In this document: in pieces, positions 570-13,886 of the stretch | Layout of the letters: every line of letters starts with the position of its first letter | How positions within the stretch are numbered: position 1 is the stretch's first letter | Source: a bacterium | Lineage (GTDB): Bacteria; UBA9089; CG2-30-40-21; SBAY01 | Direction of reading: 5' to 3' | NCBI GenBank assembly: GCA_040757115.1 | Contig: JBFLYA010000098.1 | Location: 1 to 13,886, forward strand | Length of the DNA stretch: 13,886 bases | Position numbers and translations under genes: made by a program | The notes under the pieces: generated by a model | What the model was told of the DNA's origin: nothing | The model's input: only the letters and a program-made list of their open reading frames with translations | The model's database searches: none

Positions 570-701
570 GGCTAACGATAAAGTTCAGGTGCGGCGGGGA
601 GAATTACCACAAAAGTTTGATAGCAAGATAAAACTTTGAGAGACCACAAAACTCTGACCACGGCACAGTCCCCCGCCGTCAACTGCAACGCAGGGTTAGA
701 C
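570..701 (-). other. attC site 2 (common 132-bp type)
   Basis: Cores are GGCTAAC (570-576) and GTTAGAC (695-701). GTTCAG pairs with CTGCAAC, leaving an unpaired C on the plus strand (G on the minus strand), which sets minus-strand orientation. GGCGGGG pairs with CCCCGCC. The ~75-base loop carries two similar ACCACAAAA segments and an imperfect CAAAAGTTT/AAAACTTTG hairpin. Confidence 0.9.
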
Positions 702-780
702 AAAAGCTTTGATTCGCTGTCTTTTCCTTTTCCTCTGCCTCACCGAATTATTGTGCATTCCACATTCAGGTCTGACCCCC
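702..780 (-). repeat. Conserved 3' extension of attC2 (module copy 1)
   Basis: This copy of the attC-linked segment contains AAAAGCTTTGATTCGCTG and GCCTCACCGAATTATTG and ends GGTCTGACCCCC. It lacks the TATCTCC terminus of the other copies, so the far end has diverged. It sits between the antitoxin stop at 813 and attC2. Confidence 0.85.
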
Positions 781-1470: not shown

Positions 1471-1602
1471 ACCTAACGATAAAGTTCAGGTGCGGCGGGG
1501 AGGATTGCCACAAAAGTTTGATAACAAGACAAAACTTTGATAAACCACAAAACTCTGACCACGGCACAGTCCCCCGCCGTCAACTGCAACGCAGGGTTAG
1601 AC
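1471..1602 (-). other. attC site 3 (common type)
   Basis: Cores are ACCTAAC (1471-1477) and GTTAGAC (1596-1602). The arms and stem match attC2. The loop differs at a few bases (GATTGCC, AACAAGAC, GATAAACC). It is part of the longest duplicated unit, which continues through the 3' extension into the palindrome and matches the right end of the window. Confidence 0.9.
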
Positions 1603-1692
1603 AAAAGCTTTGATTCGCTGTCTTTTCCTTTTTCTCTGCCTCACCGAATTATTGTGCATTCCACATTCACGGTTTGACCCTAAAATATCTCC
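1603..1692 (-). repeat. Conserved 3' extension of attC3 (module copy 2)
   Basis: This copy runs from the GTTAGAC core to AATATCTCC. One base differs from consensus in the polypyrimidine tract (CCTTTTTCTC). It is joined directly to the palindrome, with no gene in the cassette. Confidence 0.85.
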
Positions 1693-1704
1693 TTTTTATT
1701 TTCT

Positions 1705-1776
1705 CACACAAAGCCACAAAGAACACAAAGGTTTATTGTTTTATTCAATTCCTTTGTGACTTTGTGTCTCTGTGTG
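1705..1776. repeat. Long imperfect palindrome (gene-less cassette)
   Basis: The left arm 1705-1731 (CACACAAAGCCACAAAGAAC and on) and right arm 1751-1776 (CCTTTGTGACTTTGTGTCTC and on) are nearly complementary around a 19-base A+T-rich centre. The same element with the same centre lies at 13791-13862. It is the only content of the cassette between the solitary core at 1790-1796 and attC3. As RNA it would fold into a stable hairpin and could end transcription. Confidence 0.85.
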
Positions 1777-1789
1777 ATTATTTTTATTA

Positions 1790-1796
1790 GTCTAAC
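1790..1796 (-). other. Solitary attC R' core, rest of site lost
   Basis: GTCTAAC here is preceded on the plus strand by TATTTTTATTAG, as is the attC1 core, but no L' arm, loop or R'' follows. Instead CTTAGATTATACTG runs into the end of the CreD-like gene. The cassette border between that gene and the palindrome appears to be a remnant of an attC. Confidence 0.5.
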
Positions 1797-1817
1797 CTTA
1801 GATTATACTGCCCATTA

Positions 1818-3047: not shown

Positions 3048-3096
3048 CTTGTATCCCTCCTTATATTCTCCGATTATTCAGATACTTTCTTTAGTA

Positions 3097-3228
3097 GCCT
3101 AACGATAAAGTTCAGGTGCGGCGGGAAGAATTACCACAAAAGTTTGATAGCAAGATAAAACTTTGAGAGACCACAAAACTCTGACCACGGCACAGTCCCC
3201 CGCCGTCAACTGCAACGCAGGGTTAGAC
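3097..3228 (-). other. attC site 4 (common type)
   Basis: Cores are GCCTAAC (3097-3103) and GTTAGAC (3222-3228). The stem has one fewer pair than in attC2 (GCGGCGGGAAG). Otherwise the loop and arms are almost identical to the other common sites. Confidence 0.9.
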
Positions 3229-3316
3229 AAAAACTCTGATTCGCTGTCTTTTCCTTTTCCTCTGCCTCACCGAATTATTGTGCATTCCACATTCACGGTT
3301 TGACCCTAATATCTCC
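3229..3316 (-). repeat. Conserved 3' extension of attC4 (module copy 3)
   Basis: This copy ends GGTTTGACCCTAATATCTCC. It differs from consensus by AAAACTCTGA next to the core. Unrelated sequence starts immediately after TATCTCC. Confidence 0.85.
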
Positions 3317-3612
3317 CTATCTTTATTTATCCAAGAGGCTTCTTCATATCGCTACGTTTCTATGTGTCGTCTAACATATAGATTATACAGTTTTTCTCTA
3401 CTTTATCTCATCTGAATCAAAAAGTCAAGTAAATGTTGACAAAAAATAATAAATTTTGTATAATTCTAACTGGCTAATCATACTTTTAGGATATTATCCA
3501 GAAAAGAGGATAACTCTGCATATTTAATATCATAAGGGATGTATTGTCCCAATATAGTTTAATCCCTCTTACCCTGATTCTACTTTCCTATCAGGTTAGG
3601 CTTTATCTATGT
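3317..3612. other. Gene-less stretch with half-site and plus-strand promoter
   Basis: These 296 bases lie between the PIN antitoxin stop and the attC4 module. They hold a solitary GTCTAAC core (3369-3375) followed by a GATTATACAG motif also seen at 1801-1810, a consensus promoter on the plus strand (3436-3464), and a CCTGAT/ATCAGG inverted repeat around 3574-3598. I see no credible protein gene. Together with the module this makes an unusually long 3' region for the PIN cassette. Confidence 0.6.
3436..3464 (+). promoter_or_regulatory. Consensus sigma-70 promoter facing against the cassettes
   Basis: TTGACA (3436-3441), a 17-base A+T-rich spacer and TATAAT (3459-3464) form a perfect match on the plus strand, opposite to all genes. 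Transcription would start near 3471 and run toward the PIN antitoxin and toxin genes as antisense, or make a short non-coding RNA. Confidence 0.65.
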
Positions 3613-4476: not shown

Positions 4477-4707
4477 TTTCTTACTTTCTAAGTATAAAGT
4501 ATCAGGACATAAATCTTGCCCATTCTTCCATTGAATACTGCCCAAAAATGGTTTAACAGAGTTAAATAAGTTAGCATTCGTTAATTCTTTAAATATCCCT
4601 TTGTCTAAATATGGCTTCACATCAAATACCTTAACTTCATCATTGGTAAAAGTTAAGGTTAATGTATAGTTAGAATTCGGTTTAACATCTTTAATTCTTG
4701 GATTCAT
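4471..4707 (-). CDS. DUF2442 protein
   Basis: From the ATG at 4707 this encodes 78 residues: MNPRIKDVKPNSNYTLTL, then FTNDEVKVFDVKPYLDKGIF, LFNSVKPFLGSIQWKNGQDL and a C-terminal CPDTLYLES. The VKPxxxYTLxLxFxNxExxxFDxxPYLxxG and WxxGxDLxPDxLY patterns are those of DUF2442. A GTG at 4716 is in frame, but it lies inside AGGGGTG, which is better placed as the ribosome site for the ATG, so I chose the ATG. It follows the DUF4160 gene by 11 bases. The pair is commonly found together and is often suspected to be toxin-antitoxin-like; the activity is not established. The last codons read AAG AAA ACC TAA, with the stop supplied by attC5. Confidence 0.85.
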   Translation of the reverse strand: MNPRIKDVKPNSNYTLTLTFTNDEVKVFDVKPYLDKGIFKELTNANLFNSVKPFLGSIQWKNGQDLCPDTLYLESKKT

Positions 4708-4718
4708 GCTAATCACCC

Positions 4719-4988
4719 CTATTTTAGTGGATCTATCTTGAAGACATTCTCGCCACTACTGGCAAGTTCCCAATCAGCCATCAATTCTTCTTTATGTATT
4801 TCAAGCCATGCCTGAACCAGTTTCATCTTGCTTGATTTAATCTTGCCTTCTAACACTTTACCATCTGGAATTGAAAGAATAGTTTCTTGAGCCTGATACT
4901 TGACATGAACATGAGGCATCTGATGTTTTCTTTTGTCGAAATAATACATCGAGATAATGATACCATAAAACATTGCAATTACTGCCAT
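4719..4988 (-). CDS. DUF4160 protein
   Basis: This encodes 89 residues with the DUF4160 signature: FYGIIISMYYFDKRKHQMPHVHVKYQ near the N-terminus (histidines in HQMPHVHV), a short strand pair around ILSIPDGKVLEGKI, and a helix KMKLVQAWLEIHKEELMADW. It has a near-perfect ribosome site (AAAGGAGGT, five bases before the ATG). The stop overlaps the ribosome site of the DUF2442 gene (AAATAGGGGTG), so translation is coupled. Known family facts are limited to the conserved pairing with DUF2442; the HxxPHxHxxY pattern could bind metal or be catalytic, which is inference. Confidence 0.88.
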   Translation of the reverse strand: MAVIAMFYGIIISMYYFDKRKHQMPHVHVKYQAQETILSIPDGKVLEGKIKSSKMKLVQAWLEIHKEELMADWELASSGENVFKIDPLK

Positions 4989-5020
4989 CTTTTACCTCCT
5001 TTTGCTTAATTTCTCTCTGA

Positions 5021-5152
5021 ACCTAACGATAAAGTTCAGCGGCGGCGGGGAGGATTGCCACAAAAGTTTGATAGCAAGATAAAACCTTGAGAGACCACAA
5101 AACTTTGACCACGGCACAGCCCCCCGCCGTCAACTGCAACGCAGGGTTAGAC
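5021..5152 (-). other. attC site 6 (common type)
   Basis: Cores are ACCTAAC (5021-5027) and GTTAGAC (5146-5152). The left arm reads GTTCAGCGGCGGCGGGG instead of GTTCAGGTGCGGCGGGG, giving a slightly different unpaired central spacer. The rest matches the common site. Confidence 0.9.
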
Positions 5153-5240
5153 AAAAGCTTTGATTCGCTGCCTTTTCCTTTTCCTCTGCCTCACCGAATT
5201 ATTGTGCATTCCACATTCACGGTTTGACCGTAATATCTCC
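5153..5240 (-). repeat. Conserved 3' extension of attC6 (module copy 4)
   Basis: This copy has one silent-type change (GCTGCC for GCTGTC) and GACCGTAATATCTCC at its end. The following 5246-5300 region repeats the word ATTGCCC four times. Confidence 0.85.
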
Positions 5241-5302
5241 CCCAATTCAAGATGCGACCCTCTATTGCCCTCCTACTCTATTGCCCTATTGCCCCGACCT
5301 TA

Positions 5303-6182
5303 CTATTGCCCCCTTGAAGTCAGTTGTTGCAACACTGAAAATGCTCGTTGTGCATCATTGTCATTTGGGTTTTTCTCAAGAATATCTTTTGCGAGAAGCA
5401 ACCCATCTTCAATTTTCCCTTGACCTGCGAGTGCCAATGCAAGGAACAATGATACATTTTTGTCATTTCCATATTTAGATAAATACTCTTGACACAGAGA
5501 TTCGCATTTTGAATACTTCTTTTTGTTAATACTTTCTGCGATTAGAGAGGGTATGACTTTTTTCGCATATTCTGTCTCTTTTGCCTCTAGCTCTTCCAGA
5601 TCCGCATCGGTTATTCCAAATGGTGCGAGCTTTTCCTCATCCAGATTCTCGCGAGCTATCATTGCGCCAAGTGTAAATAGATTGACATATTTGAGAAAAT
5701 TGCCCAAGCTGTCCGGCTGTATGACGCCTATAATTGTCAAGGAAGAGCTCAATAGAAAAACTAAAACCACCAAACAGGGGTATTCCTTCAATAACTGCTA
5801 AACAGAGCAATTTAAAGCAGCAGTCGGGGAGCCTTCTCTTGTTAACAAAATCCCAAATTATGGGGAGAAAAATCCATATTAGAAAATAAGGTGTTACCGA
5901 GAAAAAGAGCTTGCCTGCTGTTGCCCAAGAACTTAACAATCCAATTCCATCTTCTAAAGGCAAGAACGGAACTAACCTCGCAGTATGAAAAGAAAGGAAT
6001 GAGTCAGCTCTTTTGAAAAACTGCCAGCCGAAAAACCCGAAAATTTGAACCAAAGTGGTTAACCCCAATGCAAACACAAAAAGTTTTGCAACTATTCCCA
6101 CAGTAAGTAAGATCGGCTCAAAAAATTTCCACCTACTAAATGCAGACATGAAAAGGAAGATCGGTCGAAAAAATTTCTTCAT
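5303..6182 (-). pseudogene. Membrane protein with TPR-like C-terminus, frameshifted
   Basis: Two overlapping frames make one protein. The first runs from ATG 6182 (AGGAG seven bases upstream) for 181 codons to 5637. It begins MKKFFRPIFLFMSAF and has several membrane segments (LLTVGIVAKLFVFALGLTTL; YFLIWIFLPIIWDF; LLCLAVIEGIPLFGGF). The second is read from about 5790 to 5303. It continues hydrophobic (SSSLTIIGVIQ, YVNLFTLGAMI) and then becomes a soluble helical tail (about 110 residues; YSKCESLCQEYLSKYGNDKN, LALALAGQGKIEDGL) resembling tetratricopeptide repeats. The second frame has only a TTG start without a ribosome site. The switch falls at a five-T run (5756-5760 on the plus strand). Removing one T gives a continuous 292-residue protein. 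Cause could be mutation, sequencing error or programmed slippage. Function unknown. Confidence 0.7.
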
Positions 6183-6205
6183 AATCTTCTCCTATTTGCC
6201 TTGGC

Positions 6206-6337
6206 GCCTAACGATAAAGTTCAGGTGCAGCGGGGAGAATTACCACAAAAGTTTGATAGCAAGATAAAACTTTGACAGGCCACAAAACTCTGACCACGGC
6301 ACAGTCCCCCGGCGTCAACTGCAACGCAAGGTTAGAC
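6206..6337 (-). other. attC site 7 (common type, weakened stem)
   Basis: Cores are GCCTAAC (6206-6212) and GTTAGAC (6331-6337). Both sides of the central stem are altered (GCAGCGGGG on the left, CCCCCGGCGTC on the right). The changes do not restore pairing with each other, so the stem has two mismatches. Confidence 0.88.
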
Positions 6338-6425
6338 AAAAGCTCTGATTCGCTGTCTTTTCCTTTTCCTCTGCCTCACCGAATTATTGTGCATTCCACA
6401 TTCACGGTTTGCCCCTCATATCTCC
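6338..6425 (-). repeat. Conserved 3' extension of attC7 (module copy 5)
   Basis: This copy ends GTTTGCCCCTCATATCTCC. The HepT stop codon (TGA, 6418-6416) lies inside it, made by one changed base in the otherwise conserved GGAGATATTAGGG (minus strand). The gene's last codons are therefore part of the module. Confidence 0.85.
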
Positions 6426-6808
6426 CCTCTTTTGTTATTATTTAGCTGGAGTTCTAAGTTCAAATTCCCCTCCAAATCCAGAAGCATCTTTTCAAATACT
6501 GGTCTAATTGGTGGCAACTCCTCTTTGACTGCTCTCCAAACTAAATCTGTTTTAACCCCAAAATATTCATGGATGAGTTTATCTCTCATACCTGCGATAT
6601 CCCGCCAGGGAATCTCTGGATATTTCTTTTTTGTTTCATTCGGTATGTTTTTGACTGCTTCGCCAATAATTTCTAAAGCCCTTATAACAGCAAAATTTGT
6701 TTTATCATCGCATAGGAATTCCTCATAAGGCATATTCCAGGTGAAACTTTCTGCTTTATTTATTGCTTCAATTATATCTTGAATATAATCACCAATTTCC
6801 CTTTTCAT
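6416..6808 (-). CDS. hepT: HepT-like HEPN ribonuclease toxin (DUF86)
   Basis: This 130-residue all-helical protein of the HEPN/DUF86 family carries the catalytic R-X4-H-X-Y motif in MRDKLIHEYFG (R75, H80, Y82). Also typical are the DIIEAINKAESF start, the FAVIRALEIIGEAVKNIP helix and PEIPWRDIAGMRD. HepT toxins cleave RNA; the paired MntA nucleotidyltransferase neutralises them by adding AMP to the motif tyrosine. The ATG overlaps the mntA stop (ATGA). The C-terminal 15 or so residues (LNLELQLNNNKRGEI) are polar and unusual, and the last two codons fall within the attC-linked module, suggesting the natural end was altered when the module was joined. Confidence 0.92.
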   Translation of the reverse strand: MKREIGDYIQDIIEAINKAESFTWNMPYEEFLCDDKTNFAVIRALEIIGEAVKNIPNETKKKYPEIPWRDIAGMRDKLIHEYFGVKTDLVWRAVKEELPPIRPVFEKMLLDLEGNLNLELQLNNNKRGEI

Positions 6809-9640: not shown

Positions 9641-9667
9641 AGCTCTATCCCCACCAATATTTATTAA

Positions 9668-9799
9668 AGCTAACGACAAAGTTCAGGTGCGGCGGGAAGA
9701 ATTACCACAAAAGTTTGATAGCAAGATAAAACTTTGAGAGACCACAAAACTCTGACCACGGCACAGTCCCCCGCCGTCAACTGCAACGCAGGGTTAGAC
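9668..9799 (-). other. attC site 10 (common type)
   Basis: Cores are AGCTAAC (9668-9674) and GTTAGAC (9793-9799). ACGACAAAG replaces ACGATAAAG and the stem ends GGCGGGAAG as in attC4. Otherwise it is identical in layout to the common sites. Confidence 0.9.
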
Positions 9800-9887
9800 A
9801 AAAGCTCTGATTCGCTGTCTTTTCCTTTTCCTCTGCCTCACCAAATTATTGTGCATTCCACATTCACGGTTTGACCCTACTATCTCC
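9800..9887 (-). repeat. Conserved 3' extension of attC10 (module copy 6)
   Basis: This copy carries CACCAAATT for CACCGAATT and ends GACCCTACTATCTCC. The stop of the CopG-like antitoxin gene lies 29 bases beyond its end. Confidence 0.85.
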
Positions 9888-9915
9888 CCCTAACCTATCT
9901 TATTTCCATAAATTC

Positions 9916-10534: not shown

Positions 10535-10564
10535 TCAGCATGTTATATCTATTATTCACAGGTA

Positions 10565-10696
10565 GGCTAACGATAAAGTTCAGGTGCGGTGGGGAGAATT
10601 ACCACAAAAGTTTGATAGCAAGATAAAACTTTGAGAGACCACAAAACTCTGACCACGGCACAGTCCCCCGCCGTCAACTGCAACGCAGGGTTAGAC
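10565..10696 (-). other. attC site 11 (common type)
   Basis: Cores are GGCTAAC (10565-10571) and GTTAGAC (10690-10696). The stem has one G-to-T change (GCGGTGGGG) against CCCCGCCGT, leaving one non-Watson-Crick position. The loop is unchanged. Confidence 0.9.
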
Positions 10697-10783
10697 AAAA
10701 GCTCTGATTCGCTGTCTTTTCCTTTTCCTCTGCCTCACCGAATTATTGTGCATTCCACATTCACAGTTGCTCCTAATATCTCC
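10697..10783 (-). repeat. Conserved 3' extension of attC11 (module copy 7)
   Basis: This copy ends CACAGTTGCTCCTAATATCT then CC, with small deletions near its end. It abuts the truncated attC12 directly, with no gene between. Confidence 0.85.
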
Positions 10784-10784
10784 C

Positions 10785-10907
10785 CTGAGTTCATCGGCGG
10801 CGGGGAGAATTACCACCAAACTTTGTAAGCGAGACAAAACTTTAATAAAACACAAACATTTAAAAAGCAGTTAACCCCCCGCCGTCCGCTGCAACGATTA
10901 GTTAGGA
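10785..10907 (-). other. attC site 12, R' core missing
   Basis: The right core GTTAGGA (10901-10907) and arm CCGTCCGCTGCAACGATTAG are intact. The left side begins GAGTTCATCGGCGGCGGGG, so the expected TAACGATAAA is gone. The stem CGGCGGGG/CCCCCCGCCG is still present. Integrase cleavage at the usual R' end should not be possible. Confidence 0.75.
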
Positions 10908-10958
10908 AAAAATTCACACATACTTAATTCTGCTTTCGAGGTCTGAACCAGATATTGG

Positions 10959-13516: not shown

Positions 13517-13557
13517 TTCAATAATCCTCCTTTTTGTGGTAAGTAGATGGTTGAAGC

Positions 13558-13689
13558 CCCTAACGATAAAGTTCAGGTGCGGCGGGGAGGATTACCACAA
13601 AAGTTTGATAGCAAGATAAAACTTTGAGAGACCACAAAACTCTGACCACGGCACAGTCCCCCGCCGTCAACTGCAACGCAGGGTTAGAC
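13558..13689 (-). other. attC site 15 (common type)
   Basis: Cores are CCCTAAC (13558-13564) and GTTAGAC (13683-13689). Arms, stem and loop match the common sites. It is the rightmost complete site in the window. Confidence 0.9.
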
Positions 13690-13778
13690 AAAAGCTTTGA
13701 TTCGCTGTCTTTTCCTTTTCCTCTGCCTCACCGAATTATTGTGCATTCCACATTCACGGTTGACCCTAAAATATCTCC
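13690..13778 (-). repeat. Conserved 3' extension of attC15 (module copy 8)
   Basis: This copy has one base fewer in CACGGTTGACCC, then TAAAATATCTCC, and runs straight into the palindrome exactly as copy 2 does at 1680-1705. Confidence 0.85.
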
Positions 13779-13790
13779 TTTTTATTTTCT

Positions 13791-13862
13791 CACACAAAGC
13801 CACAAAGAACACAAAGGTTTATTGTTTTATTCAATTCCTTTGTGACTTTGTGTCTCTGTGTG
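13791..13862. repeat. Long imperfect palindrome, second copy
   Basis: Arms 13791-13817 and 13837-13862 are the same as at 1705-1776, including the A+T-rich centre (TTTATTGTTTTATTCAATT). The match with the left copy extends from attC through the palindrome, about 300 bp, and is lost after 13866. No gene accompanies it within the window. Confidence 0.85.
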
Positions 13863-13886
13863 ATTATTTATTTCTCCATTGACTAT

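Follow-up and report, generated by a model that had tools for sequence, protein, structure and literature searches.

The locus analysed here raises the question of how an integron recombination site, together with some 90 bp of further sequence, came to stand behind a series of unrelated genes. How genes come by their attC sites still counts among the outstanding questions (PMC8618304). At this locus the joined unit is longer than an attC and has a recognisable end, which allows each junction to be examined base by base. The window, 13,886 nt in length, is contig C98 of a 4.3-Mb genome (462 contigs, 99.9% complete) whose host is placed in the candidate phylum Desantisbacteria. Genes of the window lie on the minus strand with the attC at their 3' side, and toxin-antitoxin genes are frequent among the cassettes. 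Another contig, C39, encodes an intact integron integrase, and the genome also contains several broken integrase genes at other places. Y1 genes are present in this genome and in relatives; one relative, G007, belongs to the same order. Searches of plasmid, phage and viral collections returned no matches.

The repeated module and its attC

The repeated unit, here termed the module, consists of an attC of a family about 130 nt in length and an extension of ~90 bp, ~220 bp in total, and is present in eight copies in the window (Table 1). A repeat search delimited them as a 235-nt family at 556-790, 1457-1691, 3083-3317, 5007-5241, 6192-6426, 9654-9888, 10551-10785 and 13544-13778, with 89-93% identity to the 3097 copy over 235 nt, a repetition far above chance level. 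The original prediction of an attC followed by the same ~80-90 bp at eight sites is thus borne out. When the 4.3-Mb genome was searched with a pattern for the extension core, 52 matches were obtained, compared with none for the reversed-pattern control. R'' of an attC directly adjoins the extension in every match with readable context, the remaining matches running into contig ends where the attC side is unreadable. Mean pairwise identity among the copies of this genome is 95.6% for the extension and 96.4% for the attC. Because both parts have diverged equally, attC and extension spread as a single unit, in agreement with the earlier claim that the whole module, not the attC alone, was joined to its partners; similarity stops at a definite point at the module edge, with no fading.

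The gene-side edge is sharp but less absolute than had been predicted. TATCTCC, the word at which seven window copies were said to stop, is present in seven, five of which terminate there; those at 1471 and 13558 run past it and remain identical for a further ~90 bp, and the copy at 570 ends before it. The same edge dominates genome-wide, although in some copies the module breaks off at positions 202-215. The ends are therefore mostly fixed rather than variable. As also claimed, the joined genes are unrelated, belonging to different families with flanks that cannot be aligned. They are not copies of one gene, and tandem duplication of a single cassette whose genes later diverged was rejected, with the caveat that at least 19 module copies are one gene-less cassette. 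In the window, 5303-6182 contains two overlapping membrane-protein ORFs, apparently frame-shifted and with no Pfam match.

Table 1. Features of the module copies and adjoining sequences in the window
Feature	Position	Strand	Remark
Module attC	3097..3229	-	Inverted core sites; + strand folds better; ~130-nt family
attC-proximal block of extension (...TTCGCTGTCTTTTCCTTTTCCTCTGCCTCACCGAATTATTG)	3230..3280	-	Beside R''; also in relatives
Putative transposon-type end of extension (TGCATTCCACATTCACGGTTTGACCCTAATATCTCC), gene-side edge	3281..3316	-	32/36 match to L067 element
Module copy behind RelE/ParE pair, early end (CAGGTCTGACCCC)	570..780	-	
Module copy of gene-less cassette	1471..1692	-	
CACAAAG palindrome, body of gene-less cassette	1693..1800	-	Identical block 13779-13869
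Module copy behind apparently frame-disrupted membrane protein	5021..5240	-	
Module copy supplying HepT ORF stop codon	6206..6425	-	HepT ORF 6416-6808
Module copy behind CopG/BrnT pair	9668..9887	-	G001 has same cassette and module, 98.8% over 687 nt
Module copy joined to truncated second attC	10565..10784	-	
Truncated older attC without R' side, directly past module edge	10787..10915	-	90% over 108 nt to complete attC
End of putative autonomous Y1 element type (TTAATTCTGCTTTCGAGGTCTGAACC), beside truncated attC	10920..10950	-	86% over 36 nt to L055 Y1 end
Second gene-less cassette copy, module and palindrome	13558..13869	-	Repeat search

In the 3097 copy R' (CTAAC) lies near 3099 and R'' (GTTAGAC) at 3222-3228, the cassette top strand being the minus strand; read in gene orientation the core sites are GTCTAAC...GTTAGGC (3228-3097), and likewise in the eight window copies. 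An imperfect palindrome separates R'' (RYYYAAC) from R' (GTTRRRY), and folding is stronger for the bottom (+) strand (z -1.86, -16.9 kcal/mol) than for the top (-) strand (z -0.58, -14.5 kcal/mol). The candidate cognate integrase is the intact C39 protein, which matches TIGR02249 at 372 bits, above the cut-off. Core sites, strand folding and genomic integrase thus point to an integron attC site, at which recombination by IntI is predicted.

The C39 integrase gene (L019:1471-2853, minus strand; G000:C39) encodes 460 aa, with IntI at residues 142-451. An additional N-terminal domain covers residues 1-138; it is weakly similar to the protein's own core-binding domain (28%, E 0.008) and is also present in G004 (53%). 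Integrase remnants elsewhere in the genome align with this protein only from residue 141-149 onward. Broken or partial integron integrase genes were located on C30, C63, C118, C114, C324, C154 and C116, although some of these pieces may be contig-end cuts; several broken integrases in one genome suggest multiple integrons or repeated decay.

Composition of the extension

The extension is divided into two halves, an attC-proximal pyrimidine block and a gene-side tail. The proximal block reads …TTCGCYGTCTTTTTCYTTTTCTT… and has CACTTCGCCGTCTTTTTCTTTTCTTC beside R''. GTTA of R'' directly adjoins the block in 85 of the 89 scored matches that lie away from contig edges; two of the other four have a variant core (GATTAAGT) and two are interrupted by another repeat. 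The block is conserved more widely in the phylum. In G004, G005, G007 and G010, all of other families, block and tail lie beside short attCs unrelated to the module attC, and in a gene pair (L037/L048, 78% over 670 nt) the extension is found in both lineages beside attCs that cannot be aligned. A pattern match in a member of the Spirochaetales (L061) lies within a coding-like stretch and was therefore rejected as an extension.

The tail also has counterparts outside the arrays. These are the ends of a dispersed palindromic element (…GGTYTGACCCYAAT…), the best-matching of which (L067) is identical to the 36-nt tail at 32 positions, the best of 20 shuffled tails reaching 25/36. A pattern for this element end has 27 matches in the genome, about two thirds of them outside modules, and none in the control. 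Palindromes of the form GGGTCAGACC…GGTCTGACCC are also dispersed outside arrays, and module edges and dispersed elements alike show terminal tandem duplications of the same kind. Resemblance to REP systems is partial. Dispersed intergenic palindromes (GGTCAGACC...GGTCTGACC) are present at about 20 places, and a Y1 transposase with the same ends exists, as inverted GGTCTGACCCC ends bound ~1-kb elements with a Y1_Tnp ORF in G010 and G003 (L120 and L121; 330 aa in L121). In G003 the element encodes a 330-aa protein in which Y1_Tnp is followed by a DnaA-type C-terminal domain; related ends are also found in G001 and G006. However, the Y1 protein scores 68.4 bits against the NF047646 cut-off of 80, and the GTAG guide tetranucleotide is absent from the element foot, where GGGGTCAGACC is found instead. 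The window's genome contains a degraded relative of the Y1 element on C12; intact Y1 elements of this subfamily were not detected there, and only relatives have better copies. The Y1 gene on C7 was considered as the source of the end and rejected, as its own flanking repeat differs (GGGTCTTTAGACCC), so that the GGTTTGACCC palindrome close to it does not represent its end. Combined, these sequence comparisons indicate that the module edge is best read as a Y1-family (REP-type tyrosine, HUH) transposon-type terminus, and the edge would be sharp because the tail is such a terminus.

In an RNA consensus fold of the extension no conserved pairs were found, and shuffled sequences fold at least as well as the 47-nt tail by itself. 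Other repeats are also found in or at the extension. On L103 (G001) an inverted-repeat element (GTAAGCGTTCAG...CTGAACGCTTAC), a few hundred bases long, splits the extension in two places (near 300-900 and near 2050-2790), both times at the same spot of the extension. A block GTATAATACTTTTATA...CATCCAGACTACC follows GGTYTG on L055 near 1280, L037 near 6700 and L048 near 3250; one of these three contexts is a degraded Y1 element, and the block appears to be a dispersed repeat meeting the same end.

Gene-less cassettes and junctions with older attCs

Window copies 1471 and 13558 belong to a cassette that carries no gene and is composed of the module and a CACAAAG palindrome; a repeat search shows 1674-1783 and 13760-13869 to be identical over 110 nt. 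At least 19 gene-less copies are present in the genome loci read. Two contigs (L010, L012) harbour a lone gene-less cassette and no other attC of this family, which would fit integrase use of off-target sites, and the integrase probably moved and amplified this cassette. A second palindromic gene-less body (CACGAAG) is found in L009, L011 and L038, associated with different attCs.

The original prediction had modules joined to genes. The partners are indeed unrelated sequences, but the copy at 10565 directly joins a second, truncated attC (10787 onward), the alignment of which to a complete attC begins at base 9 of the latter, and the copy at 6206 supplies the last codons and TGA of the HepT ORF, which ends within the module, as does one ORF in G014. 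When module edges were compared systematically with complete attCs, seven copies proved to abut truncated attCs (window 10736; L001 1167 and 9189; L006 10499; L008 2507; L011 8865; L103 2316). In all seven the second attC starts a few bases from the edge, has lost its R' side and retained its R'' side, and lies in the same (sense) orientation as the module, with none antisense. An attC remnant between a gene and the next attC, the mark of a fused cassette, is thus present in these seven copies and unseen in the rest. The missing attC half was not seen in the R' flanks of the truncated cases.

The MazF cassette provides states before and after such an event. In the window's genome it carries a fuller attC of another type (L014 near 4600-4740), and in G001 (L103) the module is fused into the middle of an attC of the L014 type. 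In all, an older attC has been taken over in seven copies. At the 3097 copy, by our reading, another attC-like half (GTCTAACATATAGATTATACAG, starting at about 3370) lies ahead of the PIN pair. L013/L099 was considered as an empty site and rejected, as the G001 copy retains part of the extension and is read as a later deletion between TCGGTG repeats. In L007, L008, L041 and L078 one gene family shares its R'' context (GATGGGTTAGGC) with differing attC interiors, as if attC arms had been lost or exchanged.

Origin of the junctions and comparison with known systems

The account that we favour, and to which we give an even chance, is that the module was amplified as a gene-less cassette and came to form the 3' end of unrelated genes chiefly through fusion at the transposon terminus. 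The module comprises an attC, the pyrimidine block next to it and, on the gene side, one terminus of a palindromic REP/MITE-like element belonging to a Y1 (HUH) transposase family, and would have multiplied largely as the gene-less cassette (palindrome, extension and attC). Rearrangements from the transposon terminus into a neighbouring cassette would have removed that cassette's own attC, partly or wholly, leaving a gene, in some cases an attC remnant, and the module, a fused unit that could then be moved by the integrase. We infer fusion for copies without an attC remnant, hence for most junctions, and the terminus may be a preferred breakpoint through its hairpin or through transposase cleavage. 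The visible earlier states are takeovers of existing cassettes and are not proof of naive genes turned into cassettes; the predicted trace of new-cassette formation therefore holds in that modules are joined to unrelated sequences, but what can be seen is the displacement of an existing attC. Several observations count against fusion. Most gene-joined copies lack an attC remnant, so that total loss must be assumed; the stop codon lies ≤65 nt from the edge in 21 of 32 gene-joined copies, which is also expected from direct addition to genes; plain deletion leaves the frequent stop at one terminus unexplained, requiring a breakpoint preference that has not been observed acting; and one-way arrays could also give the uniform orientation of the truncated attCs.

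Direct addition could have occurred by active Y1/HUH mobilisation, which we regard as unlikely, a transposase recognising the element end of the module and inserting a single-stranded attC segment next to genes, so that transposase and integrase would create cassettes jointly. The Y1-family terminus at the module edge, the Y1 genes in this genome and its relatives, the many genes ending 0-45 nt from the edge and the action of both enzyme types on folded single-stranded DNA (PMC8266576) are consistent with such a process; however, the module has only one such end, a second element end not being found at its R' side, an intact transposase of the same type was not seen in the window's genome, and the R' flanks of the truncated-attC cases lack the missing half. 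A still smaller chance is given to the wider proposal that a Y1 transposase reading the transposon end and inserting the attC-bearing single strand behind genes constitutes, with the integrase, a means of making cassettes, the integrase N-terminal domain possibly reading the proximal block. That domain, common to G004, would also suit a functional long attC, in which the block and a hairpin tail are under selection as recombination site or 3' UTR and genes are attached by the ordinary cassette-formation route, a reading about as unlikely as active mobilisation. The constant position of the block at R'', its persistence beside unrelated attCs across families and the L037/L048 gene, in which the extension is alignable and the attC is not, count in favour of this reading, but the same loci contain about 35 related-type attCs that have no extension, the RNA consensus fold lacks conserved pairs and the tail matches elements outside the arrays.

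Homogenisation of old modules on many cassettes by gene conversion, as proposed for Vibrio attC sites (PMC1382264), is improbable. The module of the G001 CopG/BrnT cassette is closest to other copies of its own genome and not to its orthologue, as conversion would predict, although G000 and G001 have diverged too little for this comparison to decide, and both the initial joins and the truncated attCs are left unexplained. The original prediction had named group IIC-attC introns or reverse transcription as possible ways of attaching the module to genes. Introns of this kind do occur at attC sites (PMC8876359) and would leave the module downstream of genes, where it is found, but this route is now very improbable. 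The 99.9% complete genome contains only two RVT_1 matches, an RT-TPR-primase fusion and a protein with no other Pfam domain, neither with the group II maturase domain expected of a group IIC product, and Rfam searches detected no group II intron in the window or near the RVT_1 genes.

Fusion at the transposon terminus can be compared with several known systems. An open-access literature search, and hence one giving weak evidence of absence, found no paper linking Y1/REP ends to attC modules and none on integrons in the phylum Desantisbacteria. The seven copies with attC remnants are fused gene cassettes in the published sense (a class 1 integron case, PMC4670013; blaGES-1/aacA4, PMC8876359), but here the recurrent partner is one gene-less module and the junction lies mostly at one transposon terminus, tens of times in this one genome. 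Near-identical attCs behind unrelated genes in host-specific clusters are known from the Vibrio repeats (VCR/59-be; PMC1382264), and takeover of the attC by a gene-less cassette at a transposon terminus provides one route to such a pattern; unlike the Vibrio repeats, the shared unit continues for about 90 bp beyond R'' towards the gene and terminates in a repeat also present outside arrays. Group IIC-attC introns and IS1111-type elements are likewise mobile elements linked to attC sites, whereas the end associated here is of Y1 type and lies beside R''. REP/TnpA-REP systems (RAYT, Y1_Tnp) share with the present case dispersed palindromic repeats and a Y1 transposase similar to NCBIfam NF047646, but the ends here are long inverted GGGGTCAGACC repeats in place of a GTAG guide and hairpin, the below-cut-off protein has its DnaA-type domain, and attC modules incorporate one of the element ends. 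A published comparison of TnpA-REP with IntI was made because both act on folded single strands (PMC8266576), and the module suggests a link between these two single-strand DNA machines, integron integrase and Y1 transposases.
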